Source: Orrella marina (GTDB taxonomy: Bacteria > Pseudomonadota > Gammaproteobacteria > Burkholderiales > Burkholderiaceae_B). Taken from it: DNA of 64,000 bases. The stretch lies in assembly GCF_003058465.1 (NCBI RefSeq), contig NZ_CP028901.1, positions 2,914,001-2,978,000 of the forward strand. Reading direction: 5' to 3'. This document shows positions 27,788 to 60,583 of this stretch, piece by piece (within the stretch, counting starts at the first letter, position 1; every line of letters begins with the position of its first letter). Under the pieces are notes generated by a model. It did not search any database and was not told where the DNA came from. It saw only the letters and a program-made list of their open reading frames with translations. The position numbers and the translations under genes were made by a program.

Positions 27788-27862
27788 ATGATCGTACACC
27801 CTCTGACTGTTGTGACTCTGCAAAGCGCCTGGTGGCGCTGGTGGCGTTCGTCTAACGGGTAG
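27788..27862 (+). CDS. trpL: trp operon leader peptide
   Basis: A 24-codon ORF starting ATG-ATC-GTA ends at TAG 27860-27862. Near its end lie two tandem Trp pairs separated by one Arg codon (27830-27844), four Trp codons in five. This is the hallmark of a translation-coupled attenuator: ribosome stalling at these codons when charged tRNA-Trp is scarce would prevent formation of the terminator at 27946. It lies between gph and trpE. Confidence 0.85.
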   Translation: MIVHPLTVVTLQSAWWRWWRSSNG

Positions 27863-27945
27863 GGTTCATCTGTTCGGTGGCTGCGAGAAACAACACGGGT
27901 CATGAAAAACGAGTTGTTCAGGAACAGTCAGCAAAGTTGTCAGAC

Positions 27946-27977
27946 AAGCCCGCCCTTTCCTGGCCGGGCTTTTTTTG
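27946..27977 (+). terminator. trp attenuator terminator
   Basis: AAGCCCGCC and GGCCGGGCTT form a GC-rich stem with a short CTTTCCT loop, followed directly by a T run. It lies about 85 bases after the leader peptide stop and about 46 bases before trpE, as expected for an attenuator. The competing antiterminator was not worked out. Confidence 0.8.
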
Positions 27978-28023
27978 TGGGACAAACCCGGCATCCGACT
28001 GAATCTATCTTCTACGACGCATC

Positions 28024-29550
28024 ATGACTGAAATCGAATTCAACGCGCTGGCCGCCGAAGGCTACAACCGGATTCCGCTGATCAGCGAAACATATGCTGA
28101 TCTCGACACACCGCTTGCGATCTACCTGAAGCTGGCCCATGCCACCCCGCAAGCCGGGAAATACACTTGTTTGCTCGAGTCAGTCGTCGGCGGGGAGCGG
28201 TTTGGCCGCTACTCCTTCATTGGGCTGCCGGCACGCACCATCATTCGGGCACATGGCACCAACACAGAAGTCATCACCGATGACAAAGTGGTTGAGACGC
28301 ATGAAGGCGATCCGCTGGAATTCATTTCAAGCTATCAGGAACGCTTCAAAGTCGCACTACGACCCGGTATGCCGCGATTTGCTGGTGGCCTCGCAGGCTA
28401 CTTCGGTTACGACACCGTGCGTCACATCGAATCGCGCCTGGGTCCTGCGGTCAAGCCCTTCCCGCAAGGCATGGGAGAAGGCACACCGGACATTCTCTTG
28501 TTACAAGTCGATGAACTGGTGATCGTCGACAACGTGGCAGGCCGTATCTACCTGCTGGTGTACGCCAACCCGTCACAGCCCGAAGCCTACAGCAAAGCCA
28601 GAGCCCGTCTGCAGGAACTTCGCATCAAATTGCGCAAACCAGTAGATACGCCCTACAGCCATGCAAGCGCACCGACCCAGGAGATTCGCAGTTTCAAGAA
28701 AGATGACTACCTGGCGGCGGTTCGCAAAGCCAAGGCCTATATCGAGGCAGGCGACCTGATGCAGGTTCAGGTGGGGCAGGTAATCGTCAAACCCTATAGC
28801 GACTCACCTTTGTCGCTTTACCGCGCCCTGCGCTCTCTGAACCCGTCGCCCTACATGTACTTCTGGAACTTCGGGGATTTTCAGGTGGTCGGTGCATCTC
28901 CAGAAATCCTGGTCCGGCAGGAAATCATCAGCGGTAGCGATCCGAAAGATCCGGAAACGGAAGTCACCATACGTCCGCTGGCCGGGACCCGCAAACGTGG
29001 TGGCACGCCTGAAGAGGATGCAGCCCTCGCAGCTGAACTTCAGGCCGACCCCAAAGAGCGCGCAGAACATGTCATGCTGATCGATCTGGCCAGAAATGAT
29101 GTGGGACGTGTTGCCAAGATCGGAACGGTCAAAGTCACCGATACCATGGTCATCGAGCGATACTCGCATGTCATGCATCTGGTCTCGAACGTCACGGGTA
29201 CGCTCGCGGCAGGCATGAAGAACATGGATGTACTCAGAGCGACCTTCCCCGCCGGCACTCTGACTGGCGCCCCAAAGGTCAGGGCCATGGAGATCATTGA
29301 TGAGCTGGAACCGGTCAAACGCGGTATTTACGGCGGTGCAGCGGGATACCTGAGTTACGGTGGCGAAATGGATGTTGCCATCGCGATTCGTACCGGCATC
29401 ATCAAAGATGGAATGCTTTACGTACAGGCCGCGGCCGGTATCGTGGCGGACTCGGATCCAGAGAAAGAGTGGCTCGAAACCGAAGTCAAGGCACGGGCAG
29501 TCCTGCGGGCAGCAGAGCAGGTACAGAACGGTCTGGATTCGCCAGTCTGA
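28024..29550 (+). CDS. trpE: anthranilate synthase component I
   Basis: A 508-residue chorismate-using enzyme making anthranilate with glutamine-derived ammonia from TrpG. The N-terminal regulatory LLES motif (CLLESVVGGERFGRYSFIG) that binds feedback tryptophan is intact. The catalytic half carries IRPLAGTRKRGGTPEED, LIDLARNDVGRV and FPAGTLTGAPKVRAMEIIDELEP. Length and motifs indicate a functional enzyme. Unusually, its partner gene trpG is not next but 13.7 kb downstream, behind accessory DNA. Confidence 0.96.
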   Translation: MTEIEFNALAAEGYNRIPLISETYADLDTPLAIYLKLAHATPQAGKYTCLLESVVGGERFGRYSFIGLPARTIIRAHGTNTEVITDDKVVETHEGDPLEFISSYQERFKVALRPGMPRFAGGLAGYFGYDTVRHIESRLGPAVKPFPQGMGEGTPDILLLQVDELVIVDNVAGRIYLLVYANPSQPEAYSKARARLQELRIKLRKPVDTPYSHASAPTQEIRSFKKDDYLAAVRKAKAYIEAGDLMQVQVGQVIVKPYSDSPLSLYRALRSLNPSPYMYFWNFGDFQVVGASPEILVRQEIISGSDPKDPETEVTIRPLAGTRKRGGTPEEDAALAAELQADPKERAEHVMLIDLARNDVGRVAKIGTVKVTDTMVIERYSHVMHLVSNVTGTLAAGMKNMDVLRATFPAGTLTGAPKVRAMEIIDELEPVKRGIYGGAAGYLSYGGEMDVAIAIRTGIIKDGMLYVQAAAGIVADSDPEKEWLETEVKARAVLRAAEQVQNGLDSPV

Positions 29551-29569
29551 GTCTCACATCAGCACAAGG

Positions 29570-30100
29570 TCGGTCGCTGACCCGTTGAGGGCGCCTGGTC
29601 CGCGCTCTCAACGACAGGCTGTCCAACGACCAGATCATGATCCTGACCAGGATGGCAGGATCCACTTCGCGTAATCGCTCAAACCCCTGGGCACTCTTGT
29701 CTGTGCCGTAGGCAACTGGCTGATGAAGCAACTGCGTAACCAGCGCAGAATCAATAGCCGGGACGCGTCAAAATCATAAAGATAGCAACCCAGCGTATCA
29801 AGCACTTCCGTCTCCAGAAGATTGACGCCCAGCACATACGTCCCGCCCCGACCCTCTCTCGCATCATCCAGGTCTTGCTGGTGTTGACAAACACGTCAGA
29901 GTTCCCTGCAAGCATCTTTTTCAGCATTGCGCGGGGAAGGATGCGAGCTGTGCAAACTCCGGGTACTTAGCAACGTCCCGGGGCATCCACTCCAGATCAG
30001 CCGACAGACAAAGTACCTGAGTCGCTCAGGCACTGCGGGAAGCACACCTCCTCCCAGACAAGCCATACCGATCGACCTGATAACGGTTGAAAATGCCGTC
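29570..30100 (-). pseudogene. degraded gene of unknown family
   Basis: On the minus strand, protein-like segments follow each other in changing frames. About 30040-29945 gives DLEWMPRDVAKYPEFAQLA. About 29935-29860 gives KKMLAGNSDVFVNTSKTWMM. About 29835-29730 gives NLLETEVLDTLGCYLYDFD. About 29725-29600 gives LHQPVAYGTDKSAQGFERL then a hydrophobic run. At least three frame changes and no full-length frame are seen. The family was not recognised; together the pieces look like one decayed gene at the left edge of the insertion between trpE and trpG. Confidence 0.4.
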
Positions 30101-30148
30101 AGCTGTCACTCCCCATCATTTATTCAACAGCCTTGGCAGGAGTAAGGC

Positions 30149-31336
30149 TTATTGTCCAGCCTGACCTGTCTGAAGGTATTTTTCTCCGATCAGACGCCAG
30201 GTCATGGCCGGACCATCGGCAAGCGCCTGTTCTGGTGCCATGAAAAAGTGCCCGATCAATCCTTTCTGAAAGATGCGCTGAGTAGGCCGTCCTCCCGTCG
30301 CCATCGTCGACCATCCTTCAGGACGACTGAAAAACGTCAATGCGGGTCGCATCACACCCTCGATGCCTGGTCCGAAGAACAGTGCAATATCGGCTGCTGA
30401 CTTGAGGTCGACGTCTGCCGTCGCGACCGCACAGTAGCTGATAGTCAACCCACCGGGGCGATCAACAATCTGATAGCCAGACAACATTCGACCCCCATCA
30501 TCCTGGCCAATGTTGTGTTTGAATTCACCGGCGAGTTGCTTGCGAGTGTCGTAGGGCCAGGTTTGCTCGTGATAGGCCAGCAATCGCATGCAGGCATTTC
30601 GCAATGCCTGCTGCGCACTGGATTCCCAGACCTGCAGCGGCACATTTGGCAGTGCTGTGCGCAACAGATACAAGTCCTGTGCATAGGCAGCGACGAATGC
30701 GTCTTGTGGGCCCATATCCGCAATCCGGCTCAAAACGGTCGGATCGACATTCCAGTGCACCAATTGTTCAATCATTAATGCAATGCTTTCCCGGTTCCCG
30801 CCCAACACCTCCTCGACTCCATGTCTGGCCACCAGATCGCCTAACGAGTCGGGTGTGAAGAAAGGTGCATGAAAGCCCAGTGTGGCCCCTGGTTCGATCG
30901 TTCTGTCGATATACGCGCCAGTCGGACGCCAGGACGAGTAGCCTGACCCGCCAAGAAACGCGAACGCACATGCAGAAAAACACCCGGAACCGTTAGTTAC
31001 CCAGGACGCAATGGCATTCTTACGCAGAAAATGGGCAATATCCAGTCCCTCCACGTAGTTGCCGCCCCCACTGTCAAGCGTGAGGACTGCGCAGTTGGCG
31101 CCAGTATCCGGCAATATTTTGGGATCACAATCCACATGCTGCCGGACAGCCGCAGCCAGACGCTTCAGATCCCCTGGAACGACCTCCCCTTCGTAATGCA
31201 GGTGCGGGACAGGTTTGGCATCGGAGAACCGCATCGATTTAAGCGTGATTGTGGCCGCCTGGGCCGCCTGCATCAGTCCTGATGTCGCAATGGCCAGAGT
31301 GCCGAACACCCAGGGTCTAAGCATTGAAATATTCAT
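30149..31336 (-). CDS. exported ClpP/SppA-like serine peptidase homologue
   Basis: A 395-residue protein with a signal peptide ending near MQAAQA. The middle has a ClpP/crotonase-like fold signature: LTLDSGGGNYVEG (about residue 88), the nucleophile-type GCFSACAFAFLGG (Ser about 121) and GATLGFHAPFF (His about 156), the layout of periplasmic ClpP-like proteins of the COG3904 kind. The C-terminal 200 residues are unrecognised. The ATG at 31336 follows a GGATGAG site; a longer frame starts at 31405. It heads a minus-strand set of three exported proteins that share no obvious pathway. Peptidase activity is inferred, not shown. Confidence 0.7.
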   Translation of the reverse strand: MNISMLRPWVFGTLAIATSGLMQAAQAATITLKSMRFSDAKPVPHLHYEGEVVPGDLKRLAAAVRQHVDCDPKILPDTGANCAVLTLDSGGGNYVEGLDIAHFLRKNAIASWVTNGSGCFSACAFAFLGGSGYSSWRPTGAYIDRTIEPGATLGFHAPFFTPDSLGDLVARHGVEEVLGGNRESIALMIEQLVHWNVDPTVLSRIADMGPQDAFVAAYAQDLYLLRTALPNVPLQVWESSAQQALRNACMRLLAYHEQTWPYDTRKQLAGEFKHNIGQDDGGRMLSGYQIVDRPGGLTISYCAVATADVDLKSAADIALFFGPGIEGVMRPALTFFSRPEGWSTMATGGRPTQRIFQKGLIGHFFMAPEQALADGPAMTWRLIGEKYLQTGQAGQ

Positions 31337-31414
31337 GAACAGTCTCATCCAGTCACAGAACAGGCAGGCGGAAATGCTGGCAAGGCCATCAGGCTGACAC
31401 CGCATAGGCCACGA

Positions 31415-32586
31415 TCAGCTGACAGAAAGCAGCTTTGTTAATGAATCAAACAACGACTGTGGCAAACCTGGCAAGTCCTTTGTTTCACTCGTCCGAATAT
31501 CGCCAGACTGAAAAGCCTTCAGTGCACGTCTGAGTGAAGCCGAAGTCTGAGACTGCAGCCCCGCCTGCCGGCCTTCACTGCGCATTCGCATGAGCTGCAC
31601 ACCGAACTGCGCGCGTGCTTTAGCAACCGAATCTGCGCTGGCATCAGTCACACCAGCCGCCTCGGGTGTCCAGTACTGGTTCAATGCCAGCGCCATGGCT
31701 CGAATCACTTGTGGGCTCCCGATACGATCCGGGAGATACCAGTCATCGGGGCTCAGCGTTTCGGTCCAGGCATATTTCACCAGCAGGGACTGTAATGTTG
31801 ATTCCGCCGATTCCGGGAAATGCACATCGTAGCCAGCGCCTTCGACATACTCCCGGGCGGCTCGTTGAGCGATCGTGAGCAACCGTCGTTTCTCTGAATC
31901 ATCCAGACCATTGCCTTTCTGCACGATCGTCATATACCCCCGGGCCTGCATCGCCAAAGGCAGCCGCTGAAACTGTGAGTCTGCATCCCGGCAAGCATCG
32001 GCGGCAGCATCCAGAAATGGCAGATACGGGCGGTCCTTCTCCGAGGTGATGGCAAATGCCACCGTCTGCGTATCGCTCATCAGCCACCCGCCACAGACTG
32101 ACAGCTCTTTACCGGAAAGGTAAGGATGCATGTGACCTACTCTGGCTAACGCCATCAATCCCTGGAGTATCTCGCTTCGGTTCTTCGAAGCGGCGCCGTG
32201 TGTCAGATTTCCGATACCGGAAGGCGTCGAGACCCGGTACCGGTTTTGACGCAACCTGGCGGGGAGTCGTAGAACCTTTGTGATCTGGCAAAAGCCTGCG
32301 CCAGCTGGTTCACGGCATCCTGATTGAACACCCCTTTGTTTGCCTGAAGAAGTGCACGAAACAGAACCATGTTGGTGTTGGCGCCCAGCATATTGACCCA
32401 GGGATGATCTGGGCAGGCTTGAACATAGGCGTCCATGTCTCTGGCCTTCGCCACCAGCATCTGCGTACTATCCAGGACGACACCTAAAGCATCAGGCAAT
32501 ACCTCGGCATCACAGGCATCGGCATGCACAGGGCTGGCAGCCAGCGTAGTCAGCCCCAGTGTCATAACCAGTATTGTTCGAATCAT
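31415..32586 (-). pseudogene. exported protein of unknown function, frame-broken
   Basis: The N-terminal part (32586 to about 32265) has a signal peptide ending near SPVHADA, then a helical region through LAQAFARSQRFYDSP. The rest, about 270 residues, continues in a second frame (to 31415) from the RLRQNRYRVSTPSGIGNLTHG stretch. The switch is at a run of four C on the minus strand (around 32263-32266); one added C joins both parts into a protein of about 390 residues. The joined protein was not recognised. Two Cys near the N-terminus and few later ones fit a periplasmic protein. It sits between the ClpP-like gene and another small exported protein, all on the same strand. Confidence 0.55.
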
Positions 32587-32708
32587 GAGTCAGACTCCTA
32601 TGAAACCTAATACCGGGCTTCACACGCCCTCACCTCGGAGTCCAGAATGTCCTCAAACCCGGAGAGCCGTTTAGCTCTACGAACTCTTGCCTGGTCCGCC
32701 CAGGCAGC

Positions 32709-33176
32709 TCAGGGGGCTTTCTGGAAGAAGGTCCTCTCACAGGCGGCCAGATCCGCCATCAGTGACTGTTCAAGATCCAGATAGGCCTTGCGTTTGGCAT
32801 ACTCCTGATCGGCGAGCGCTTTTTTCTCGGCCTTGGAGCCGGGTTTACTCTCAATGTCGTATACGAGCCGACCGGCTTCAGCTTTCAAATGCTGGATGTT
32901 GGCAGCCAGCCCCCGGCCCTTTGAGTCCACATCTTTCGCGACCGACTCGAAACTCTGGCCTGCATTCTGATCAACATATCCCTTGATCAAATGCTGGGCT
33001 CGTGCCTGACCAGCCTGGGCCTTTGCCGGATTCATCAGTGCGAAGGCCCAGTAGTTGATCGCACAAGGCAATGCATCAGGCGCAGCACGGGCGGGACCCG
33101 AAACAATAGCGAACGCCCCCGAAAGGCAAACAACTGCCGTCAGTGAAAGGGGGAAAGGTCGGAGACGAGCGGCCAT
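32709..33176 (-). CDS. small exported protein of unknown function
   Basis: A 155-residue protein with a signal peptide ending near GPARAA. The mature part begins with LPCAINYWAFALMNPAKAQA and is nearly all helical, rich in Ala, Lys and Gln, with two Cys, one near each end. No family was recognised. It is the first gene of the three-gene minus-strand exported set. Confidence 0.6.
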   Translation of the reverse strand: MAARLRPFPLSLTAVVCLSGAFAIVSGPARAAPDALPCAINYWAFALMNPAKAQAGQARAQHLIKGYVDQNAGQSFESVAKDVDSKGRGLAANIQHLKAEAGRLVYDIESKPGSKAEKKALADQEYAKRKAYLDLEQSLMADLAACERTFFQKAP

Positions 33177-33574
33177 GACTTTTCCTTGGAGTGCGTATCA
33201 ACAAAAGGTTAGTTGAGCCTGCCCCCCTGAAAATAGTGAATTTCCTTGGGGTTCCTGATTGAACGTGATCGGGAGTAAGCGTGAGTACTGAACCACCCCA
33301 TGGCTAAAGCCCAGGGGGTTCTGAAGGCGTGCGTGCGAGGGGTATCCGGGCTCTGAGTCTGGCGACGTACAGCATCCCGGCCGGGACCTTGCACAAACCT
33401 TCTTTGCCGCGCGATCGACTCTGATGCAATAGCCACTGTGGGATTGCCGCAAGGCGACCCGCTTGTCGATTCGTGAAGCGGTCACAGTCCCGCGCGTTCT
33501 GGTAGCGGTTGCGCAACCGCCCAGCCCTTTGCGAGCCGGTGCCGGGACGGACTGTGCCCGTCTTGCGTGGCGTG
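33177..33574. other. spacer with no recognised gene
   Basis: These 398 bases lie between the exported-protein set and an MscS remnant. No gene was recognised; overlapping ORFs on the minus strand are low-complexity and unsupported. It contains one copy of a 16-bp repeat at 33284-33299 that recurs at 39996. Confidence 0.4.
33284..33299 (+). repeat. 16-bp direct repeat, left copy
   Basis: AGTACTGAACCACCCC occurs here and again, identical and in the same orientation, at 39996-40011. The two copies bracket the MscS remnant and the LysR-to-FAH cassette, 6.7 kb. The sequence is reminiscent of insertion-sequence ends, but no transposase lies beside it. Confidence 0.6.
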
Positions 33575-33905
33575 CTTTGGCAGGAAGTGCTCGCAGGCCT
33601 GGGTGTCGGTGGTCTGGCTGTCGCCCTGGCTGCCCAGTCAACGTTGCAAAACTTCATCTCTGGCATCACGCTCTACTTCGACCAACCTAGCGATTGGGGA
33701 CTACTGCAAATTTGGCAGCAGAGATGGCACAGTCGAGTGCGTCAGGATGCGGTCAACTAGAATCCGTACGCCGGATCGCACGCTCCTAACCGTTCCAAAC
33801 AACGAATTCTCCAACATGCGGTTGGAGAATTACACCAACCGTGACTGCATGGCTCTGAACACGACCTTGCAGGTACGTTATGAAACAACACCCGACCCGT
33901 TTCGG
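33575..33905 (+). pseudogene. MscS-family mechanosensitive channel remnant
   Basis: Two frames carry the core of an MscS channel. The pore-lining LAGLGVGGLAVALAAQSTLQ and NFISGITLYFDQP are in one frame (to about 33690). The beta-domain part GSRDGTVE, RTPDRTLLTVPNNEFSNM, ENYTNRD and LQVRYETTPD is in another (to about 33900). The N-terminal helices and the C-terminal domain are missing, and the frame change is +1 rather than a simple homopolymer loss. Homology stops where the convergent LysR gene begins. This looks like a true truncated gene. Confidence 0.75.
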
Positions 33906-34852
33906 GGAGTACGTACGCTATCGGTCAGTTTTATTGTTTCCGTATCTAGCAAGTGCTCAATACAGGTTTCAATGAATATCTGGGCCGGACTCGATAAAGT
34001 CGCATCGAGCAAATAGGAGGCACAGATTACCCGGGAAAGAGCAAGATCATCAATAGGCACCAATGAAATAGCATCCTGGTTATATACGCGCAGGAACGAA
34101 GATGGAAGAATTCCGATTCCCAGGCCTGCTCCAATAAACCCGATCATCGAGTTAACTCGGTCCACTTCGTAAACAGGTGTGACAGTTAACCCGATTCTTA
34201 AATACTCATGATCGATCAATTGTCGTACGTTGCTGGTTGGTCGCATGGCAACCTGTGGAAACTGGGCAATCTGCTCCCATCGAACCGATTGAAAATGAGT
34301 CAGCGGGTGCCCCTCCGGGCAGATGAGCACGAGTTTATCGACGAACAGTTCACGTTGCATGAGATCGGCTGCTGTCTGCTTCCGAGGTGTCAGCACGACC
34401 TCGACCTGCCGACAACGCAAGGCATCGATACAGTCTTCGTACACTTTTTCAATAAGCTGAACCTCAACTCCGGGTAGCCTGCCACTGAATCGACGTAGAG
34501 CACCAGGCAAAAAACTCGCCATGACTGAAGGCGACGCAGCAATTCGTAATGAGCCTGCATTGCCTGTCACAACGCTCTCAAGCCTCTCGAAAGTAAGGTC
34601 AAATTCGAATAGAAGCTGCCGTCCGAGCTTCAGAAACTCTTTGCCTACCGAGGTGAGCTCTACTGAACGGGTGTGACGATCAAGCAGCCGCGCACCTATG
34701 GTGCGCTCAAGATTACGAATTTTGTCGGAAAGTGTGGGTTGCGAGATATGTAGGTTTTCTGCAGCCCGGCTAAAGCTCAGAGCTTGGGCGACTTCGACAA
34801 ACGCTTCCAGATCACGGATATTGACTCGCCGTCTAGGGTTAATTATCGGCAT
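33878..34852 (-). CDS. LysR-family transcriptional regulator
   Basis: A 324-residue LysR regulator. The N-terminal winged helix is RDLEAFVEVAQALSFSRAAENLHISQPTLSDKIRNLER, then a linker helix and an effector domain of two alpha/beta lobes. It is divergent from the dioxygenase gene with a 130-base gap, the usual arrangement for a regulator that senses the pathway substrate. The last dozen residues are read from DNA that matches the MscS remnant on the other strand, so the natural C-terminus was probably altered when the two segments were joined. Confidence 0.9.
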   Translation of the reverse strand: MPIINPRRRVNIRDLEAFVEVAQALSFSRAAENLHISQPTLSDKIRNLERTIGARLLDRHTRSVELTSVGKEFLKLGRQLLFEFDLTFERLESVVTGNAGSLRIAASPSVMASFLPGALRRFSGRLPGVEVQLIEKVYEDCIDALRCRQVEVVLTPRKQTAADLMQRELFVDKLVLICPEGHPLTHFQSVRWEQIAQFPQVAMRPTSNVRQLIDHEYLRIGLTVTPVYEVDRVNSMIGFIGAGLGIGILPSSFLRVYNQDAISLVPIDDLALSRVICASYLLDATLSSPAQIFIETCIEHLLDTETIKLTDSVRTPRNGSGVVS

Positions 34853-34950
34853 TTCCTATAAATTTGACCTTATAAATCGATAAACAAGGGTCGAACATAG
34901 CACTAATCTACAAGTCAGGAAATACGTCAAGACCGATAGTCGCAACAAAA

Positions 34951-34968
34951 GCTTGATAAATCACAAGC
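34951..34968 (+). promoter_or_regulatory. dyad before the dioxygenase, candidate LysR site
   Basis: GCTTG (34951-34955) and CAAGC (34964-34968) flank eight A/T-rich bases, ending one base before the ribosome binding site of the dioxygenase. It fits the size of a LysR half-site dyad, but only one clear copy is seen. Confidence 0.35.
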
Positions 34969-34982
34969 GAAGGAGACATACG

Positions 34983-35873
34983 ATGAATGCCAGTTCAACC
35001 GATACAAGGTCCATAAGTGTCACTCCTCTCGGCGAAGCACTAGGTGCTGAGATCAGCGGAGTTGACTTCAAGCAACCACTAACCGAATCCGTTCTCGCAG
35101 AGATCAACGAGGCTTGGGCAAAACACCTGGTTCTCAGGTTCAGGGGATTGCAAGGCCTCAGCCCAGAAGAGCTGATCGACTTCTCAAAGAGTTTTGGGAC
35201 GTTGGACGCGCGTCCAATTGCAACTGGAGACAGAGGCGCCTACTTGGAAGTCGATCGTCCGGAATTGACTATCATTTCCAATGTCATCATTGATGGCAAG
35301 CCCATTGGCGGTCTGGGTGCTTATGAGGCTGACTGGCACGCTGACATGACATATGTTGAGCGGCCACCGAAAGGCAGCTGCCTTTATGCCGTGGAAATCC
35401 CGCCCGCAGGCGGCCGAACGTACTTTGCCAACATGTATCTGGCCTACGACACCCTGGACCACGAGACAAAGCAAAAAATCGAGAACCTTACCTGCATTCA
35501 CGATGCCAGTCGAAACAGTGCCGGGCAACTTCGCAACGGATACGAAGAAATTAATGATCCCCGACAGACGATCGGACCATCACATCCACTGGTACGTATC
35601 CACCCAACCACTGGCCGCAGATGCTTGTTGCTGGGACGCCGTCGCAATGCATACATCAACGGGCTCGACCTTGAGGAAAGCGAAGCGTTACTGAACAAGC
35701 TTTGGACGCACGCAACCCAGTCGCAGTTCACATGGGGCCAAGAGTGGGAACTCGGCGACATGATCATGTGGGACAACCGCTGCACCATGCATTACCGGGA
35801 AGCGTTTGACCCGTCCTCACGCAGAATAATGTTTCGCACTCAGATTTCCGGTGAACCTGTTGTCGGTCTTTAA
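34983..35873 (+). CDS. TauD/TfdA-family dioxygenase of the island cassette
   Basis: A 296-residue Fe(II)/2-oxoglutarate dioxygenase. The metal triad is His119 and Asp121 in DWHADMTY and His270 in CTMHYREAF; Arg281/Arg285 in SSRRIMFRTQI are candidates for 2-oxoglutarate binding. The ATG at 34983 has AAGGAG 7 bases upstream; a longer frame from 34953 lacks such a site. It leads a LysR-controlled cassette with an enolase-superfamily enzyme, two Bug receptors and an FAH hydrolase, so it probably performs the first hydroxylation or ether/sulfonate cleavage of the imported acid. It is clearly distinct from the dioxygenase at 1484. Confidence 0.88.
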   Translation: MNASSTDTRSISVTPLGEALGAEISGVDFKQPLTESVLAEINEAWAKHLVLRFRGLQGLSPEELIDFSKSFGTLDARPIATGDRGAYLEVDRPELTIISNVIIDGKPIGGLGAYEADWHADMTYVERPPKGSCLYAVEIPPAGGRTYFANMYLAYDTLDHETKQKIENLTCIHDASRNSAGQLRNGYEEINDPRQTIGPSHPLVRIHPTTGRRCLLLGRRRNAYINGLDLEESEALLNKLWTHATQSQFTWGQEWELGDMIMWDNRCTMHYREAFDPSSRRIMFRTQISGEPVVGL

Positions 35874-35895
35874 GAACTCAGGCGATTGACCAAAG

Positions 35896-36972: not shown

Positions 36973-36989
36973 CTGGAGGGATAATCAAA

Positions 36990-37970
36990 ATGAATTTTAT
37001 TTCACGTGGTGCATTTGTTGGAGCCATCAGTCTGACACTCATGTCGGTACCGCTGACGGCAGCCGCACAGTATCCGACCAAACCTGTAACACTGATTGTT
37101 CCAGGACCTGCGGGTAGTGGAACGGACGGGATCGGACGACTCCTGGCAAAGGAGTTCTCCGAAGAGTGGGGGCAGCCCGTTGTCGTAGAAAACAGAGCGG
37201 GAGCGTCTGGAATGATAGGCACCCAGGCGCTGCTCAGACAGCCAGCCGACGGTTACACCATACTGCTTGGACACGTCTCCACGCACTCTGTCGTCCCGGC
37301 CGTCCAGGATCCGACACCCTACAACCCAGTTGATGACTTTGAAGCCATTGGTCAGGTGGGATCGACATCCAATATCCTGGTCGTACCAACCAGCTCTGAC
37401 ATCCAGTCGGTCGAGGATCTCATTGCGCTTGCAAAAAGTGGCACAACGCTAAGTTATGGATCACCAGGAGTTGGACTAACTCAGCATTTTGCTGGCTATA
37501 CGTTTGGAAAAATCAACGACCTAGATATGTTGCATGTTCCTTACAAGGGCAGCGGTCCGGCATTAATGGACCTGCTTGGCGGTCGGATCAACATGATGTT
37601 TGTCACACCTCCCGCTGCTTACGGTGGCGTCAAAGGTGGCAAGCTACGTGTGCTTGGACAGACATCGGAGAAGCGCCAGACCGCCTTTCCAGATGCCCCG
37701 ACATTCGAAGAGCTAAAGATGCCAGACTTAACCAGCACATCATGGTTCGGGATGTTTGCACCAGCAGGAACCCCGAAGGATGTGGTTGAAAAGATCAATC
37801 AATCACTGCACAAAGCTTTGGAGAAAGAGCCTGTTCGTGAACAGCTTGCTGTCATGGTTATCGAGCCCGCGGACCCGCACTCTCCGGACGACTTTAAAGC
37901 ATTCGTCTCACGCGACTATGAGCGCTGGAAGAAGACTGTAGAAGAGTCTGATATTGCGGCGGGTTCATAA
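36990..37970 (+). CDS. Bug/TctC-type substrate-binding receptor (first copy)
   Basis: A 326-residue periplasmic receptor of the Bug (TctC) family, greatly expanded in the Alcaligenaceae. The signal peptide ends near LTAAAQ, then the hallmark start YPTKPVTLIVPGPAGSGTDGIGRLL. Family blocks QPVVVENRAGASGMIGTQALLRQPADGYTILLG and HVPYKGSGPALMDLLGGRINMMF follow. No TctA/TctB membrane partners are in the cassette, so it may use a carrier encoded elsewhere or act in sensing. Directly follows the enolase-family gene. Confidence 0.92.
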   Translation: MNFISRGAFVGAISLTLMSVPLTAAAQYPTKPVTLIVPGPAGSGTDGIGRLLAKEFSEEWGQPVVVENRAGASGMIGTQALLRQPADGYTILLGHVSTHSVVPAVQDPTPYNPVDDFEAIGQVGSTSNILVVPTSSDIQSVEDLIALAKSGTTLSYGSPGVGLTQHFAGYTFGKINDLDMLHVPYKGSGPALMDLLGGRINMMFVTPPAAYGGVKGGKLRVLGQTSEKRQTAFPDAPTFEELKMPDLTSTSWFGMFAPAGTPKDVVEKINQSLHKALEKEPVREQLAVMVIEPADPHSPDDFKAFVSRDYERWKKTVEESDIAAGS

Positions 37971-38032
37971 CAAACACATAAACAAATATTTAAAAATCAA
38001 CACATTACAAGAAATAATCAGGAGACTTGATT

Positions 38033-39007
38033 ATGTTGAAAAGTATAAATGCTCTAGCAATAGTTACTACCATTTTCGTAGCAGCCATATCACCGGTAAA
38101 AGCGGATGAAGCCTACCCGGACAGACCCATCACCATCGTTGTTGCCTACCCACCTGGGGGCGGAATAGACACGCTGGCACGGCTCATTAGCGTAGAGCTG
38201 TCGGACAGACTTGGACAACCTGTTGTCGTGCTAAACAAGGCAGGTGCCGCCGGCTCAATTGGTACTGCTTCAGTTGCACGAGACAAACCAGATGGCTACA
38301 CAATGCTTCTCAGCGGCGCCAACGCCATTCTGAGCCCATTGGTTGACCCCAATCTAAGCTTTACGATCAAGGACTTCTCTCCCGTTGCTCGTTTGACGGT
38401 CACCCCCTACACCCTTGCGATCTCACCAAGCCTGGGAATCAATACCTTTGAGGAACTGGTCGAATACAGCAAACAGCATCCAGGTGAACTTAACTATGGA
38501 TCGACCGGACTCGGCTCTGTTCAGCATCTCCTCGGCGCTCTTGCACAAAATCGCGCAGACGTCGACTGGACTCACATTCCATACAAAGGAGGCAATGAAG
38601 CACTACGCGAGCTTTCCGCAGAACGGGTTCAGATTATGTTCAGCAATCCAATTCCGTTGACACCTTATCTTCAAAACGAAAGTATCAAGGTGATCGGCGT
38701 GGCGACCGAGGATCGAATTCCGGCCATGCCAGACGTTCCGACACTACTCGAGCAAGGAGTGGAAGACTTCGACATTACAACCTGGGTAGGCCTGTTGTCT
38801 CCTGCAGGTACGCCGGAATCGATTCGTAACAAGATCAGCGATGAAATCGTATCGATCGTCGAAATCCCAAAGATCCGCACCGCAATTGAGCAACTCGGAA
38901 GCATCGTTTCCCCAATGCCGACCAAACAATTTGGTGAATTTCTGATTAAAGATGAGGCCAGGTGGAAAAGCATACTGGACCAGTCAGGCTTCGACAGCAA
39001 GAGCTAG
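38033..39007 (+). CDS. Bug/TctC-type substrate-binding receptor (second copy)
   Basis: A 324-residue paralogue of the preceding receptor. The signal peptide ends near PVKADE, then YPDRPITIVVAYPPGGGIDTLARLI, QPVVVLNKAGAAGSIGTASVARDKPDGYTMLL and THIPYKGGNEALRELSAERVQIMF. The ATG at 38033 has AGGAGA 7 bases upstream; a TTG at 38027 is less likely. The two receptors differ along most of their length, so this is not a recent duplication and they may bind different ligands. Confidence 0.92.
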   Translation: MLKSINALAIVTTIFVAAISPVKADEAYPDRPITIVVAYPPGGGIDTLARLISVELSDRLGQPVVVLNKAGAAGSIGTASVARDKPDGYTMLLSGANAILSPLVDPNLSFTIKDFSPVARLTVTPYTLAISPSLGINTFEELVEYSKQHPGELNYGSTGLGSVQHLLGALAQNRADVDWTHIPYKGGNEALRELSAERVQIMFSNPIPLTPYLQNESIKVIGVATEDRIPAMPDVPTLLEQGVEDFDITTWVGLLSPAGTPESIRNKISDEIVSIVEIPKIRTAIEQLGSIVSPMPTKQFGEFLIKDEARWKSILDQSGFDSKS

Positions 39008-39076
39008 GCAAGCGACGTTTGACTGATGCCGACCCTGAAACATTGCGTATAACTAATCTACTGACTGGAGTTTCAA

Positions 39077-39970
39077 TTGCGCCTGATTTCATTCTTAGAC
39101 CAGGGCCAACCCAGACTTGCAGCACTGAAAGATGGAAACGTGTACCGACTCGATTCCATCCTGGATGACCCGCAGGCAAATCTGATGGATATCCTGAGAC
39201 AGGGTCCAGATGCACTGGCCTCTCTGTCTGACAAGTTTGCCCAAAGCGATTTGCCGGTCGACAAGTCACTGACGCTCGAATCGATGCGGTTTTTGCCACC
39301 CATTGGGCGCCCGGGCAAGATCATTTGCCTCGGGCTTAACTATGCTGACCATGCTGCAGAAGGAGGTCATTCCCGCCCAGAATATCCTAGTGTTTTTCTG
39401 CGTAGCGCGACATCTCTTGTGGCGCACGGTCAGAACATGATTCTTCCTGAATGCTCAGAGCAACTGGATTATGAGGCTGAACTCGCCGTCATCATCGGAA
39501 CTCGTTGCAAGAACGTACCCGTCGAGAAAGCGCAGGAGGTCATAGCCGGTTACAGCTGTTTCAACGATGGAAGCATTCGTGACTACCAGAGAAAAACGGC
39601 GCAGTGGACGGTAGGGAAGAACTTTGATGCGACAGGTGCCTTCGGGCCATTTTTTGTGTCAGTAGAAGAGTTACCACCCGCTGCGAAAGGCTTGCGTATT
39701 CAAACCAGACTCAACGGTGTCGTGATGCAAGACGCGAATACCAGCGACATGCTCTTTCCCGTTGAGGAGGCAATTGCGATTTTGTCGGAGTGCATGACCC
39801 TGGAACCGGGCGATGTCATTGTGACGGGTACCCCTGCAGGAGTTGGTGCTGCGCGCAAACCGCCCGTATGGATGAAAGCTAACGATCTGGTTGAAGTGGA
39901 AATCGAGGGCATCGGCATTCTTTCAAATACCGTAGCGTCTCAAAAACAGCATGGCAGTCAGATCACTTAA
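39077..39970 (+). CDS. fumarylacetoacetate hydrolase (FAH) family protein
   Basis: A 297-residue enzyme with an N-terminal small domain and the FAH fold. Landmark blocks are KIICLGLNYADHAAEGG, the metal-ligand region LDYEAELAVIIG, GYSCFNDGSIRDYQRKTAQWTVGKNFD and the end block TLEPGDVIVTGTPAGVGAARKPPVWMKANDLVEVEIEGIG. The family cleaves C-C bonds of 3-oxoacids or dehydrates sugar acids. The start is TTG at 39077 with GGAG about 9 bases upstream. Probably the last enzyme of the LysR cassette. Confidence 0.88.
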   Translation: MRLISFLDQGQPRLAALKDGNVYRLDSILDDPQANLMDILRQGPDALASLSDKFAQSDLPVDKSLTLESMRFLPPIGRPGKIICLGLNYADHAAEGGHSRPEYPSVFLRSATSLVAHGQNMILPECSEQLDYEAELAVIIGTRCKNVPVEKAQEVIAGYSCFNDGSIRDYQRKTAQWTVGKNFDATGAFGPFFVSVEELPPAAKGLRIQTRLNGVVMQDANTSDMLFPVEEAIAILSECMTLEPGDVIVTGTPAGVGAARKPPVWMKANDLVEVEIEGIGILSNTVASQKQHGSQIT

Positions 39971-40319
39971 GTTGAGAAATCTCTTTCAGAGAGCTAGTAC
40001 TGAACCACCCCGGGCCTTTTCAGAGATGTATCCTTGACTGGAAGGGCAACCGGGTCAACCAGGTCGACTTTTTGAAAAATTGAAATGCGGCTTCAAAATC
40101 GTTTCAAGATGCACTGTGGAGGGTGAATCAGGCTTTAGCATTGACTTGATACTGCAGAATTTTTTCGGGCCCAGACTCTGAGGTCTCATAAAAAAAGCGA
40201 TCTACCCGAAGAAGGTTTACGCACACGACTGCGAAGCCGGCCTCTTTCTTTAAACGCATTCTCCATGGAAATTTTAGTCGACACGTATCAGTCAGTCTGT
40301 GCGGGGGGTGATAAGAAGA
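39971..40319. other. spacer after the FAH gene
   Basis: No gene was recognised in these 349 bases. The right copy of the 16-bp repeat lies at 39996-40011. The rest is A/T-rich and low in coding signal on both strands. Confidence 0.45.
39996..40011 (+). repeat. 16-bp direct repeat, right copy
   Basis: AGTACTGAACCACCCC is identical to 33284-33299. Together they delimit a 6.7-kb segment that includes the whole LysR-to-FAH cassette. Confidence 0.6.
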
Positions 40320-40637
40320 ATGAAAATGGAATGCATCTGTGGCCATCTGATCCTGGACAATCATGACCACCTTTCAAACAAAGGGCATGTCATACCGGAT
40401 CAACTCTGGCTCGACCTGCTGGATCGCATCAACTCTGCTATTGAGCGTCCAGGCAAAACGGATAAAGAACGAGAAACCGCATGCATGGCCGTGCGCAAAA
40501 AGCTGAATGATAGTAAGAGGACGGCCTGGCAGTGTGATACGTGCGAGCGGCTTTATATTGATGACACGAACGGCCGAACACTGGCTTTCGAGAGCGCAAG
40601 CACTGGAGTCGCCACCGGAATCTTTCGTGGATTCTGA
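40320..40637 (+). CDS. small cysteine-pair protein of unknown function
   Basis: A 105-residue protein that opens with M-K-M-E-C-I-C-G-H and later has CDTCERLYID, so a CxC plus CxxC set could bind one zinc. The line NHDHLSNKGHVIPDQLWLDLLDRI is well-formed coding sequence and resembles a group of uncharacterised proteobacterial proteins. The ATG at 40320 is preferred over a start at 40299. It lies just upstream of the IS1380 element. Function unknown. Confidence 0.6.
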   Translation: MKMECICGHLILDNHDHLSNKGHVIPDQLWLDLLDRINSAIERPGKTDKERETACMAVRKKLNDSKRTAWQCDTCERLYIDDTNGRTLAFESASTGVATGIFRGF

Positions 40638-40693
40638 GTAGCCCTGTACGATGAGTGTGATCAGCTAACTTTATGTGTTATTGGTGGAATTTG

Positions 40694-40698
40694 ATCAA
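40694..40698 (+). repeat. target-site duplication, left copy
   Basis: ATCAA directly precedes the left inverted repeat of the insertion sequence and is repeated directly after the right one at 42343-42347. Confidence 0.8.
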
Positions 40699-42342
40699 CC
40701 TAAATCCGTCAGTTGCTTGCTTCCAATTCGGCTAGACGCTAATGTTTATGCGGGTTTGCATCAGATGGGGGTATTCACCAAATGGGTGAGCGTAAAAACA
40801 AGTCAAAAACAGCCGTTGCGACCGTCTCTGAGCCGTTGGTGGTGGACACCATGGGCGGTCGCATACATGTGCACTGGGATGAGTCAGCGCAAGCGACTCC
40901 CAACGGACAGCTGGTCTTTTTTGCCGAGTTTCTTGCCTGCACGGGCGTCTTTGATCGCTGGGTCGAGCGCTGCCCTCTGACCTATACCAGTCCCAACTCG
41001 CCGGGCAACCGGGATGTGCTGGGGACGTTGCTGCTGGCCATCCTGGCGGGTTACCAGCGCTATGCGCATGTGACCGCCTTTCGTAACGATAGAGGGGTGA
41101 TCAGGTCGTAGCGAAATCGCTCGGAACGAACAAAATCATCAGCGAGGACTCCTTGCGCCGGGCACTGGCCCGGATGGACGAGCAAGCTAGTCAGGCGTGG
41201 TTGCGCCCCGCACTCATGTCGAGTGTACGCGAGGCGCTGGATCGCGACTGGATACTGGACATAGATGCGAGCGTTAAGCCTTTATACGGCAAACAGGAAG
41301 GGGCGTTGAAGGGCTACAACCCGCACAAGCCCGGCCGACCCAGTCACGTGCTGCACACGTACTGGGTGAGTCCGCTACGACAGGTTCTGGATGTGCAGCT
41401 GACAGCGGGCAACCAGCATGCGAGTTCCCATGCTCGAGCAGGTCTGGAACAGCTACTGGACGAGCTGGGCGAGAAAGCGCCTGCGCTGGTGCGCGGTGAC
41501 AGTGGTTACGGCAACGAGGGGATTCTGGTGGCGCTTGAGCAACGCCAGCAACCCTATCTGCTGCGGCTGCGCCAGACGGCTAACGTTCAACGCCTGGTGC
41601 GACGCCAGTTTGACCGGCTGGACTGGAGCCGCACCGACTCTCAGGGCTTCCAGGCGGTTCAGGACGAGGTCAAGCTCTCGGGCTGGAGCCAGCCACGGCG
41701 GGTGGTGATCCTGCGTCGCCGGCTACGCGAAGGTATTGCCCGGGAGACATTGGATGACCATGGGCAGTTGCGTCTGGACTTTGCGGATCACCATATCCTG
41801 GATGCCGCCCGGATGTGGGAATACACCGTGCTGGTGACCAACGCGGACTATCGCCTGGAATCGATTGCCCAACTGTATCGGGATCGCTGTGATTGCGAGA
41901 ATGGCTTTGATGAACTGAAGAATCAGTGGGGGCTCTCAGGTTTCACCACCCGGGATCTGAATCGCAGTCAGACGACTGCACGTGCGGGAGCCCTGATCTA
42001 CAACTGGTGGAGCTGGTACTGTCGGGCTGCCCATCCGGGTGGCAGACTCGAGGCGATCACGAGTCGCCCGTTGTTGCTGGCCGCCGTGGGTAAGGCCGCG
42101 AGTCATGCTGGACAGACGACCCTGTATCTGACGTCCATGCACGCCAGAATGGACACTATCAATCAGTTGCTGGTCAACGTTCGTGCGGCTTTACAGCATG
42201 TCAGATTGACCGCGGAGCAGTTCAAGGATGTCGACCGATGGAGCACCCTGCTGAAGTACGTATGCCAGAAAATTGCACCCCGGATTGATGCTCAACCAGC
42301 CTGTCGGACACTGCCGGCGACGGGCTAACTGCTTTTTTTAGG
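40699..42342 (+). mobile_element. IS1380-family insertion sequence
   Basis: A 1,644-bp element bounded by imperfect inverted repeats: CCTAAATCCGTCAGTT at the left (40699-40714) and AACTGCTTTTTTTAGG at the right (42327-42342), which share CCTAAA, five free positions and CAGTT when aligned. ATCAA is duplicated on both sides (5 bp, as known for the family). It carries one transposase gene filling most of its length. The ends were read directly from the sequence. Confidence 0.88.
40782..42328 (+). pseudogene. IS1380-family transposase, frame-broken
   Basis: Two ORFs (40782-41111 and 41153-42328) together encode a DDE transposase of about 515 residues. Hallmarks are the first Asp in DIDASVKPLYGKQEGALKGYNPHKPGRPSH, the second in LVRGDSGYGNE and the Glu in CDCENGFDELKNQWGLSGFTTRD. 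The frame is lost near 41093-41096, where a run of four G would need a fifth to read through to TNKIISEDSLRRAL. If the base loss is real, the copy is inactive. The stop codon lies inside the right inverted repeat. Confidence 0.85.
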
Positions 42343-42347
42343 ATCAA
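42343..42347 (+). repeat. target-site duplication, right copy
   Basis: ATCAA directly follows the right inverted repeat of the IS1380 element and matches 40694-40698. Confidence 0.8.
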
Positions 42348-42474
42348 GAAAGGTGATCGATCGCCAGGACAAACTCCACTTCACACGGGAAGTACCCTGC
42401 CCGACCGGGCCTAACCTCACTCAATCGCTGACACCACGACAAACGATAGGGTCTCGGCACTCTGGGGCACAGGT

Positions 42475-42621
42475 TTACGATGGACTTTGTAGCTCGCAAA
42501 CGACCCGATGCATGCATGTCAGCCTTCGCAGCGAGGGGCAGTCCGTTTTTTGGATCCACTCCTCAAATAGATCCGGATTGGTTTCGGGTGTGAGTCGATA
42601 ACTCATGATCAGGTTGGCCAT
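42475..42621 (-). pseudogene. truncated RedY/HapK-like small protein
   Basis: A 48-codon minus-strand frame starts at ATG 42621 behind a very good GGAGGAAA site. Its start M-A-N-L-I-M-S-Y-R-L-T-P, followed by FEEWIQKTDCPSLRRL, resembles small ferredoxin-like dimeric proteins of the RedY/HapK or EthD kind, which are about 100 residues long. The frame then stops early at 42475. Downstream toward the IS1380 element a second frame ends in EVEFVLAIDHLS, which could be the rest of the domain. The family call is tentative. Confidence 0.4.
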
Positions 42622-43228
42622 ACGGTGTTTCCTCCGACTGGGCTAGTTGAGTCGTCAGAGAACATGTGCGTTCCCCAATCTCGACAACCCGGCAAACCAA
42701 AGCTCAACGAACCGGGTAGATCTGGAACACGCGATCGTCTCTGTTTATCCGGGAGAACCCCTGCAGAGTTCACTACCAGCAGCCAGTATCAACATGGTAT
42801 GATTTTGACCAGTTAGCGGTACACGCGACATGGCAAAAGTACACCTGAACGATTTTCAGGATGGCCTGTCGTCGAGTCAATCTGATTCACCTCCGCAATT
42901 CTTGACTTGCAGGACAGACATGACACAACCGGTTTCTAGCACTGTTTCGTTGTGGTGGCGCTTCCAGTAGGAGGCGACACTGTGTTGCGGCCCCGACCGC
43001 ACCTTGCCGCCGACTCCGGACAGGCAAGGTTCTGCAAAAGTCTCTCCGGCACGGCGGCTCCCAGATTCCAGGAGAAAGCCTGATGACCGCCATCAAACCC
43101 GTTCTAAATCTGATCTGTCTGGAACCTTGCTGTACATGAAGGTACACCAGGCTAACTCGTGCGCCTTTCACGCGCGACTGGAAAAGTTTTGCTTGGTGAC
43201 AAGCGACTGAATATAAGAAGAGGTTTGT
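42622..43228. other. 607-base spacer upstream of trpG
   Basis: No gene was recognised on either strand. A 46-codon frame from ATG 42831 has no family features. The long antisense frame reaching into trpG is a shadow of trpG. A good ribosome binding site AGAAGAGG (43216-43223) lies 5 bases before the trpG GTG. This is the right margin of the DNA that separates trpE from trpG, so any new promoter for trpGDC should be here. Confidence 0.45.
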
Positions 43229-43822
43229 GTGTCCAAGATACTCATGATCGACAACTACGATTCCTTCACCTACAACCTGGTGCAGTACTTCGGGGAACTG
43301 GGTGAAGATGTTCACGTCTACCGCAACGACCAGATCACAATCGAAGAGGTTGAAGCTCTGGCGCCCGATCACATCTGCATTTCGCCCGGTCCGTGCTCTC
43401 CCGCAGAAGCGGGCATTTCGGTTCCTGTCATCAAACACTTTGCCGGCAGGACCCCGATTCTGGGAGTCTGCCTGGGTCATCAGGCAATTGGCGCTGCGTT
43501 TGGTGGGCGAATCGTGCGTGCGAAGGAGATCATGCATGGCAAGACGTCTGTTATCACCCATACCGGATCGGACGTCTTCATGGATCTGCCAAGTCCTTTT
43601 ACCGTGATCCGCTACCACTCTCTGGCCATTGAACGCGAAACCCTGCCGGACTGCCTGACTGTCACAGCACAGACAGCTGATGGCGAGATCATGGGTGTGC
43701 GTCATAAAACCTTGCCAATCTATGGCGTACAGTTTCACCCTGAATCCATACTAAGCGAACATGGTCACGCGCTGCTGCGCAACTTCCTGCGAATCGAGCA
43801 CCACGTGGCGATGGAGGCATGA
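43229..43822 (+). CDS. trpG: anthranilate synthase component II (glutamine amidotransferase)
   Basis: A 197-residue class I amidotransferase that supplies ammonia to TrpE, and often also to PabB. It contains [16 protein letters not shown], the oxyanion region [12 protein letters not shown], the nucleophile Cys in [16 protein letters not shown] and the catalytic His-Pro-Glu in [13 protein letters not shown]. The GTG start has AGAAGAGG upstream. Its stop overlaps trpD by four bases. In close relatives it directly follows trpE; here it does not. Confidence 0.95.
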
Positions 43823-44853
43823 TGACAATCACTCAAACCGAAGCTCTGGCCCGTTGTATTGAGCACCGCGAAATTTTTCATGACGAGATGCTGTACTTGA
43901 TGCGCAGTCTCATGAAAGGAGAGATGGCCCCGACCATGGCGGCCGCTCTGCTGATGGGATTGCGGGTCAAGAAGGAAACCATCGGTGAAATCACCGCAGC
44001 GGCCATGGTCATGCGTGAGTTTGCGACCCCGGTTAAAGTCGACGATCCAGACGAGCTGCTTGATCTTTGCGGAACGGGAGGAGACGGTACCAGCACTTTC
44101 AATATCTCAACCAGCGCCATGTTCGTTGCAGCCGCGGCCGGCGTACAGATTGCCAAGCATGGCGGTCGCAGCGCGTCATCGCCTAGCGGCAGCGTGGATC
44201 TGATCGAAGCACTGGGAGCCCGCGTCGATCTGAACCCGGAGCAAATCAATGAGTGTCTGCGCGAAACAGGGGTAGGCTTCATGTTTGCGCAGAACCATCA
44301 CTCTGCCATGCGGCATGTTGCGCCCATTCGCAAGGAACTCGGGGTCAGGACCATTTTCAACATTCTGGGCCCATTGACCAATCCGGCTGGCGCACGAAAT
44401 CAGATGATGGGCGTGTTCCATCAGGATCTTGTCGGGATCCAGGTCCGGGTACTCAAAGCCCTGGGCTCACGACATGTGCTGATTGTGCATGGTCTGGATG
44501 GCATGGATGAGGCCTCACTCGGCGCACCGACAATGGTCGGGGAACTCAAGGACGGGGAAGTCATTGAGTACGAAATCCACCCTGAAGACTTCGGGATGGA
44601 CATGATTTCAAACCGCTCTATCCGGATAAGCACTCGGGAGGAGTCCAAGGCACTGGTTCTGCAAGCTCTCTCGAACAAACCTGGGGTGGCCCGTGACATC
44701 GTGGCGTATAACGCCGGTATCGCGATTTACGCCGGCAACAAGGCACCATCCATTCAGGAAGGCATCAAAATGGCCTTCGATGCACTGGCCAGTGGTGCTG
44801 CACGAGAGAAACTCGAGCAGTTTTGCGAAGCCACCCGGAGGATTGCAAAATGA
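43819..44853 (+). CDS. trpD: anthranilate phosphoribosyltransferase
   Basis: A 344-residue enzyme joining anthranilate to PRPP. The PRPP/pyrophosphate loop is [48 protein letters not shown] and [20 protein letters not shown] supply substrate contacts. An ATGATG start overlaps the trpG stop, so 43819 or 43822 are both possible. Coupled to trpC by an ATGA overlap. Confidence 0.95.
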
Positions 44854-45662
44854 GCACTGACGTTTTAAGCAAGATCCTGACCGTCAAGGCAGAAGAAGTA
44901 AAGATGGCGCGACAACTGCGCAGTCTGAACGAGCTGATGCGCGAGGCCCAGGCTCGCAAGGATGTTCGCGGTTTCGCCTCAGCGATCGAAGACAAGATTG
45001 CCAGCGGACACGCTGCAGTGATTGCTGAGGTCAAGAAAGCGTCACCTTCAAAAGGGGTGCTCAGAGAACACTTTGATCCGGCAACGATTGCAAAATCCTA
45101 CACAGCCGCTGGCGCCGCCTGCCTGTCAGTCTTGACCGATGTGCAGTTCTTCCAGGGCTCTCATGACTACCTGCGCCAGGCGCGCGCAGCCTGCCCCCTG
45201 CCAGTGTTGCGAAAGGATTTCATGATCGACCCGTATCAGGTCGTTTCTGCCAGAGCCATGGGTGCTGACTGCATTCTGCTGATCGTCGCTGCGCTTGAAC
45301 TGGGCCAGATGCAGGAGCTGGAGTCCTGCGCGGTCGATCTCGGCATGGATGTCCTGGTCGAGGTTCACGACGAGAGCGAACTCGAAAACGCACTGAAACT
45401 CAAGACGTCTCTGCTCGGGATCAACAATCGCAACCTGAAGACGTTCGAAACCACCTTGCAGACAACGTTGGACTTGCTGCCCAGAATTCCGGCAGACAAG
45501 CGTGTTGTGACCGAAAGCGGCATCCTCAAGTCGGATGATGCACAACTCATGCGAGACAACGGCGTGGAGGCATTTCTGATTGGAGAAGCTTTCATGCGAG
45601 CAGAAAACCCGGGACAAGCGCTTTCCGATCTGTTTCAGCACACACGCCAGAAGGCGGCGTAG
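44850..45662 (+). CDS. trpC: indole-3-glycerol phosphate synthase
   Basis: A 270-residue monofunctional TIM-barrel enzyme closing the indole ring. Key blocks are [50 protein letters not shown] and [16 protein letters not shown]. The start at 44850 overlaps the trpD stop and is better than the longer frame from 44823, which lies inside trpD. No trpF, trpB or trpA follows, as usual for the group. Confidence 0.95.
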
Positions 45663-60405: not shown

Positions 60406-60483
60406 GTCGGTAGACTCCTGAAATTCGGACCGACAACGCTCACGGCTCTGGGGAGACTCACCACAATCGCCATCGGTCTGGAT

Positions 60484-60583
60484 TGGGTGAGCGCCGTTGT
60501 AGTGAGAGAAGCTCCCACAATGGACCTTTACTGAGCCTGGCAGTCAGGCGTGATTCGCAAGACTGTCGCAACGCTCCTCAGCA
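60484..60583 (-). promoter_or_regulatory. SAH riboswitch in the ahcY leader
   Basis: Read on the minus strand, CTGAGGAGCGTTGCGAC (near 60581-60565), CCAGGCTCAG (60540-60531) and AACGGCGCTCACCC (about 60498-60485) appear in order. They are the conserved strands of the S-adenosylhomocysteine riboswitch, where GAGC pairs with GCTC in two stems. The element ends about 80 bases before the ahcY ATG. It switches the gene on when SAH builds up. Confidence 0.88.

Follow-up and report, generated by a model that had tools for sequence, protein, structure and literature searches.

A 64,000-nucleotide stretch of the Orrella marina genome (the window) carries trpE and trpGDC on the + strand as two separate units, 13,678 bases apart (trpE end, 29550; trpG start, 43229). 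We found that trpG in the window is preceded by a tryptophan (Trp) leader peptide of its own and by a strongly conserved RNA, and that RNAs of the same type are carried by integrase islands lying at the 5' end of trpG in two relatives, G102 and G127. It appears likely that islands integrate at the start of trpG, that they can bring a Trp-sensing leader with them, and that the window holds an old, decayed island of this kind. An earlier note on this DNA had proposed that accessory DNA parted trpE, with its leader and attenuator, from trpGDC, leaving trpGDC outside attenuation control and the two anthranilate synthase subunits uncoupled. The split was borne out, in a genome assembled as a single contig of 4,227,194 bases (completeness 99.99%), as were the leader and attenuator of trpE. 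The second Trp leader and the RNA were absent from that account; they leave both the claim that trpGDC lies outside attenuation control and the proposed uncoupling of the subunits without support. Judging from the sequence, the consequence of the split is probably the reverse of the one proposed, with trpG under its own Trp leader, and since trpG possesses both a leader peptide and a conserved RNA, trpE and trpG probably both respond to charged tRNA-Trp through separate leaders.

The second leader (42920–42970, + strand; MTQPVSSTVSLWWRFQ) contains tandem Trp codons and encodes a peptide ending in WWRFQ. The conserved RNA of about 130 nucleotides (42948–43080, +) scores 108.3 bits with R1, a covariance model built on 23 aligned leader RNAs. 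Within it, region 3 can pair locally to form a hairpin, H3 (43001–43030, +), or can pair with region 4 (43046–43061, +), which can alternatively pair with the Shine-Dalgarno/start region. The Shine-Dalgarno sequence, AGGAG (43070–43074, +), is that of a short open reading frame (ORF), the relay ORF or ORF2 (43083–43139, +; MTAIKPVLNLICLEPCCT). A second small ORF recognised by eye (43136–43210, +), whose start overlaps the ORF2 stop, fills most of the gap to trpG. Further upstream, a possible extended -10 element (TGGTATGAT; 42795–42803, +), assigned by motif only, lies at a greater distance from the leader than its counterpart in the majority of other genomes, and a -35/-10 promoter scan upstream of trpG found no site on the + strand. 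Across genomes, a -10-like motif (TAnRMT) occurs within 130 nucleotides before the leader at 32 of 37 loci, compared with a mean of 10.7 after letter shuffling.

Leaders of this type recur before trpG in split genomes. A 16-codon ORF ending in WWRF[QLR] precedes the matched trpG start by 167–384 nucleotides in six of nine split genomes of the family (the window, G014, G016, G018, G019 and G021), while no WW leader was found before trpG in G003, G004 and G005, in four contiguous genomes or in two genomes of other families. A further 20 trpG upstream regions were picked for a certain or likely split; in 17 of them WWRF or WWRS stands close to the end of a leader (absent from L066–L068). Besides the window, 22 of 28 other split loci examined in the family have a leader ORF with tandem Trp codons. 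The 23 aligned RNAs are highly conserved, sharing GTGGTGGCGCTTCC..TAGGAAGCGGCA, CTTGCCGCCGTACCGG and CCGGCACGGCGGCTCC, followed by the Shine-Dalgarno sequence. A known Rfam RNA was set aside for lack of a credible match: against Rfam release 15 the leader RNA had no match at the gathering score, and the best was at chance level (E = 0.38).

When the 268 genomes covered by our family searches were scanned with R1, 54 gave matches at an E-value of 0.001 or better. Fifty-two matches, in 51 genomes and 17 of 43 genera, reached at least 68 bits, the remaining matches scoring 20–24 bits; the RNA is a candidate for a new structured RNA, spread over 17 genera within a single family. For 43 of the strong matches a trpG is listed on the contig and strand of the match, and every one of the 43 sits 1–299 nucleotides upstream of it. 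Seven of the other nine were opened (G237 and G239 were left out): those of G126, G128, G137 and G173 and one in G127 (contig C2) precede trpG, the second G127 copy (contig C4) precedes a trpG stub, and the copy in G080 (contig C7) precedes no trpG. An order sample (399 genomes, family included) yielded a single strong match in another family, at 123 bits and before trpG (G397), and in a class sample of 369 genomes only the window exceeded 28 bits. Among 80 named trpG loci, the RNA stands directly before trpG in Cupriavidus gilardii (L129) and in a record named Pseudomonas fulva (L188). Weak R1 matches elsewhere (16–28 bits) were mostly left unopened. Among the matches of the order sample that were opened, L109 precedes trpG, and L114 and L120 show nothing alike. 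A search of plasmids for the window element gave no copy at an E-value of 1e-3.

The presence of the RNA goes with the arrangement of the genes. Taking a trpE–trpG gap under 500 bases as contiguous, 123 genomes with both genes among the matches listed comprise 89 that are contiguous, 29 that are split on one contig and 5 with the genes on different contigs. On this count the RNA is carried by 23 of the 29 split and 3 of the 5 different-contig genomes and lies at trpG in none of the 89 contiguous ones (the G080 copy lies elsewhere), a contrast that is partly built in, as most contiguous gaps are too short and R1 was built from split genomes. Within the genus of the window, the aligned ends of trpE and trpG are 32–157 bases apart in G006, G007, G008, G001 and G002, and the genes are distant in G005 (3 kb), G003 (23 kb) and G004 (32 kb). 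The adjacency expected of close relatives in the earlier note thus holds for five congeners and fails for three. Relatives with the genes far apart around other spacer genes, which the note had taken as telling against an insertion, do occur (29 of the 123 listed genomes); together with the integrase cases, however, split relatives with differing spacers fit repeated insertion at one site.

Integrase DNA was found at the 5' end of trpG in three relatives and, with the adjacent genes of the congeners, it shows the idea that accessory DNA parts trpE from trpGDC to be right in outline. Downstream of trpE, G102 has a ribosome site and the first nine trpG codons with a stop after them, and then further DNA and an integrase. 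In G127 (contig C4), a copy of the leader RNA and seven trpG codons precede the integrase, and in G004, from the window's own genus, a nine-codon trpG stub with changes does so. The G127 and G102 integrases are 86% identical, and both integrases tested (G127 and G004) have arm-binding, central and catalytic domains; the integrases of the G102 and G127 islands are of the P4 type (Arm-DNA-bind_3). The right ends of these two islands carry the leader RNA and a new trpG start; G127 holds two RNA copies, one at the seven-codon stub and integrase (C4, L104) and one before trpGDC (C2, L103). Repeats of the TGTGTAAT type lie between the relay ORF and the new trpG start at the right ends of G102 and G127 (contig C2), and also before the integrase in both genomes. 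Tests of ten G127 proteins identified relaxase/DUF3363 and TraI_2 on the integrase contig and a topoisomerase on the trpGDC contig, and we infer that a single conjugative island is bounded by these contigs. No transfer gene was among ten proteins tested next to the ends of the G102 island. An uninterrupted site is present in G065, the sister row of G102 on the TrpGD tree. In the window, the RNA before trpG matches the right-end feature of these islands, a Trp leader with a new start, its promoter being recognised by motif only.

The G127 integrase has few close relatives (in 20 of 268 genomes at an E-value of 1e-80), and beyond G102, G127 and G004 none lies beside trpE among the matches listed in genomes that also have trpE listed. 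Integrases 54–59% identical to that of G127 occur in G221 (C41), G251 (C43), G167 (C16), G160 (C49), G158 (C17) and G254 (C423); they are not beside trpE where the place of trpE is known, and their target sites could reveal other genes with supplied leaders. In G080, a copy of the element (C7, L102, 3373–3501) belongs to an island-type right end that runs into other DNA past the first trpG codons, and the genome's trpE and trpG sit side by side on a different contig. Two split members of the window's genus, G003 (L035) and G005 (L044), share GTTAAAATCGGTTAC before trpG, as judged by eye, and have no WW leader; this shared sequence is perhaps another replacement promoter.

The similarity of the element between genomes does not mirror that of the host proteins. 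Similarity of TrpE follows that of TrpGD (Spearman 0.81, 38 genomes). Among 20 genomes that have the element as well as both protein sequences, the TrpE–TrpGD correlation is 0.80 (Mantel p = 0.001), while Mantel tests of the same type gave 0.09 for TrpGD and the element (p = 0.25) and 0.16 for TrpE and the element (p = 0.12); over 29 genomes the TrpGD–element correlation is 0.12, with a nominal p of 0.015 over non-independent pairs. G156 and G102, which belong to different genera, share 91% of the element compared with 82% of TrpGD, whereas the sister rows G155 and G156 share 96% of TrpGD and 70% of the element; G156 has no integrase beside trpE and has kept the right-end repeats. A tree of TrpG and TrpD (56 rows) requires the element label to change 13 times, and well-supported branches force at least 9 of these changes. 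Joint transfer of trpGDC with its leader is not favoured, because TrpGD follows TrpE and because on this tree the window groups among its congeners and the P. fulva row among Pseudomonas.

In light of these data, we propose that islands with P4-type tyrosine integrases would integrate at the 5' end of trpG, at about codons 7–9, leaving a short trpG stub behind trpE and parting trpE from trpGDC. The right end of the island would then supply a promoter, a WWRF leader peptide, an RNA switch and a relay ORF, together with a new set of first codons for trpG, as it appears to do in two of the three integrase cases. With ample Trp, the ribosome would reach the leader stop, H3 would form, and region 4 would mask the Shine-Dalgarno/start of the relay ORF or of trpG; with scarce Trp, it would stall on the Trp codons, regions 3 and 4 would pair, the start would open, and trpG would be translated directly or by coupling. 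The window would then represent an old, decayed island whose right end was retained because trpG needs it.

The predicted pairings were examined by a partner-swap test of 40 elements with 2000 permutations, the statistic of which ignores kinship. Swaps as strong as the native pairing arose in none of the 2000 for H1, a hairpin with the Trp-Arg-Phe codons in one arm, in one for H2, in none for H3 and in one for start masking. The masked start is trpG's own at 5 of 33 loci. At 21 of the 28 others it opens a short, unconserved ORF that ends -25 to +16 nucleotides from the trpG start, and at 7 of the 28, the window included, the gap from ORF2 to trpG is 31–89 nucleotides. These are raw counts without a shuffled control, from the 33 of 35 loci that fitted these patterns (G016 and G257 were dropped), and this placement of the relay ORF is consistent with a masked start that would be passed on to trpG by translational coupling.

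The trpG RNA is tied to trpS by leaders built on the same plan. Similar leaders, scoring 24–52 bits compared with 68–139 for the family's trpG type, were seen before trpS-like genes at L110–L113 (family code f4) and L121 (f32); of these five genes three were tested, and all three (L110, L112 and L121) exceed the TIGR00233 cut-off. Like the trpG type, they end in WWR (KWR in L112), followed by GGCGGCA and a GCCGCCGG arm, and most share the CCGGCGGC arm and the Shine-Dalgarno sequence; L110, L111, L113 and L121 gave no credible Rfam match. They differ in that four have a T7 terminator. This run of Ts follows the H3 hairpin in L110–L113, four of the five trpS-type leaders opened, suggesting that H3 is the off state. 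By analogy with these leaders and with the classical trp attenuator, the trpG RNA might itself act by transcription termination, at H3 or through Rho, and not by start masking. We regard this as improbable: none of the 23 aligned trpG-type RNAs has a T run after H3, start masking has support from the swap test, and the relay ORF keeps its place.

A number of observations weigh against the combined picture of a Trp switch delivered by islands. Swap support is weak for the pairing of regions 3 and 4 (125 of 2000) and lacking for regions 2 and 3 (1852 of 2000). Equilibrium folding barely shifts with the position of the ribosome, the chance of an open Shine-Dalgarno sequence averaging 0.12 for a ribosome at the Trp codon, 0.09 for one at the stop and 0.09 for untranslated RNA; as the sequence is masked in most elements at equilibrium, one must assume that the choice is made while the RNA is being transcribed. 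The mask in the window is weak (open chance 0.34–0.44), and in G162 and G163 the sequence is mostly open (about 0.75). The G004 integrase island, at the same site, has a right end without a WW leader, and among the matches listed G003, G005, G265, G271 and G286 are split without the RNA. The window has no recognisable integrase, tblastn with the integrases of the three relatives giving only weak matches (best E = 0.045), and no recognisable trpG stub or repeats; in the absence of these relics, the island origin of its copy is something we infer. Nor does an integrase lie beside trpE in most of the element-bearing genomes examined. Being short and constrained, the element is a noisy marker, which by itself lowers its correlation, so a low correlation alone is no proof of mobility. 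Finally, the element label is clustered on the TrpGD tree beyond chance (shuffled mean 18.9 changes, with a value as low in 3 of 500 shuffles), which implies that some inheritance has been vertical.

This clustering, the spread of the element over 17 of 43 genera and the lack of an integrase beside trpE in most split genomes examined would also be expected if trpGDC stood apart from trpE, with a Trp leader of its own, as far back as an early member of the family; deletions would then have rejoined the genes in many lineages, and a few islands would have acquired the leader on integrating there. Such an ancestral split seems unlikely, since element similarity tracks neither TrpE nor TrpGD, since the sister rows G155 and G156 differ in subtype while G156 and G102, from different genera, are near-identical, and since G102 and G065 are nearly identical in TrpGD, yet one site is occupied and the other empty. 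Far less probable still is the reading of the earlier note, in which accessory DNA broke the operon and trpGDC came to depend on an unrelated promoter beyond the reach of Trp. The split is real, and G003, G004 and G005 have no WW leader before trpG, but the window has both such a leader and the RNA at 108 bits, and a plain broken operon with an unregulated trpG was set aside because of this second leader. Returning to insertion at trpG, we lean, with some reserve, towards its broader form: that integrative elements use the first trpG codons as attachment site and carry, at the end next to trpG, a Trp-sensing switch that keeps the interrupted operon of the host regulated, that the switch outlives the element as a scar, and that trp regulation across many genera of a single Burkholderiales family stems from mobile elements.

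An insertion that breaks a biosynthetic operon would be expected to deprive the host of control over the genes beyond it. In this case the incoming DNA seems to supply a substitute amino-acid sensor, a possible explanation for the frequent occupation of the trpE–trpG junction; if true, this would mean that operon regulation has been spread by mobile DNA. Separate attenuation of trpE and trpGDC was reportedly described in Pseudomonas putida by Olekhnovich and Gussin in 2001, where, as here, the two units are split and each has its own leader. The Pseudomonas loci L171 and L184 have another type of leader, ending in RWRWRG or RWRWRA and giving no R1 match, which we take to be the known P. putida type, and the record named Pseudomonas fulva (L188) has a leader of the type found here. 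SXT provides its target gene with a new promoter and first codons. The islands reported here resemble SXT/R391 elements, which have a tyrosine integrase and insert at the 5' end of the host gene prfC (PMC4344509); unlike prfC, the target here is trpG within a biosynthetic operon, and the supplied 5' region holds an amino-acid-sensing leader. In Pseudomonas aeruginosa the R2 pyocin cluster likewise places accessory, phage-like DNA between trpE and trpG, but the available part of that account describes no integrase scar or Trp leader (PMC7344871). This was the single paper found in the open-access literature on an integrase or genomic island at a trpG integration site, and we found no open-access report of an attachment site of an integrative element at trpE/trpG.

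At the upstream end of the split, trpL, the leader ORF of trpE (27788–27862, +; MIVHPLTVVTLQSAWWRWWRSSNG), has four Trp codons by sequence, and a hairpin followed by T7 (27946–27976, +), identified by sequence and folding, resembles an intrinsic terminator and would serve as attenuator; a terminator consensus scan with a loop limit of 8 did not include this hairpin in its + strand list. trpE (28024–29550, +) scores barely over the TIGR00564 cut-off. The accessory DNA that separates trpE from the leader region of trpG (29551–42790, right border approximate) includes six tested ORFs without a Pfam match. It also contains a catabolic cassette of lower GC content (33878–39970; about 0.49–0.53 compared with about 0.565) with a LysR gene on the - strand and TauD, enolase-like, two TctC and FAH-type genes on the + strand, followed by a broken IS1380-type transposase in two open pieces (40782–42328, +). 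Beyond it lie trpG (43229–43822, +), trpD (43819–44853, +) and trpC (44823–45662, +, as the ORF is listed; the true start may be further in). The sole Rfam match in the window at the gathering threshold is an S-adenosylhomocysteine (SAH) riboswitch at 60482–60585 on the - strand (64.1 bits).

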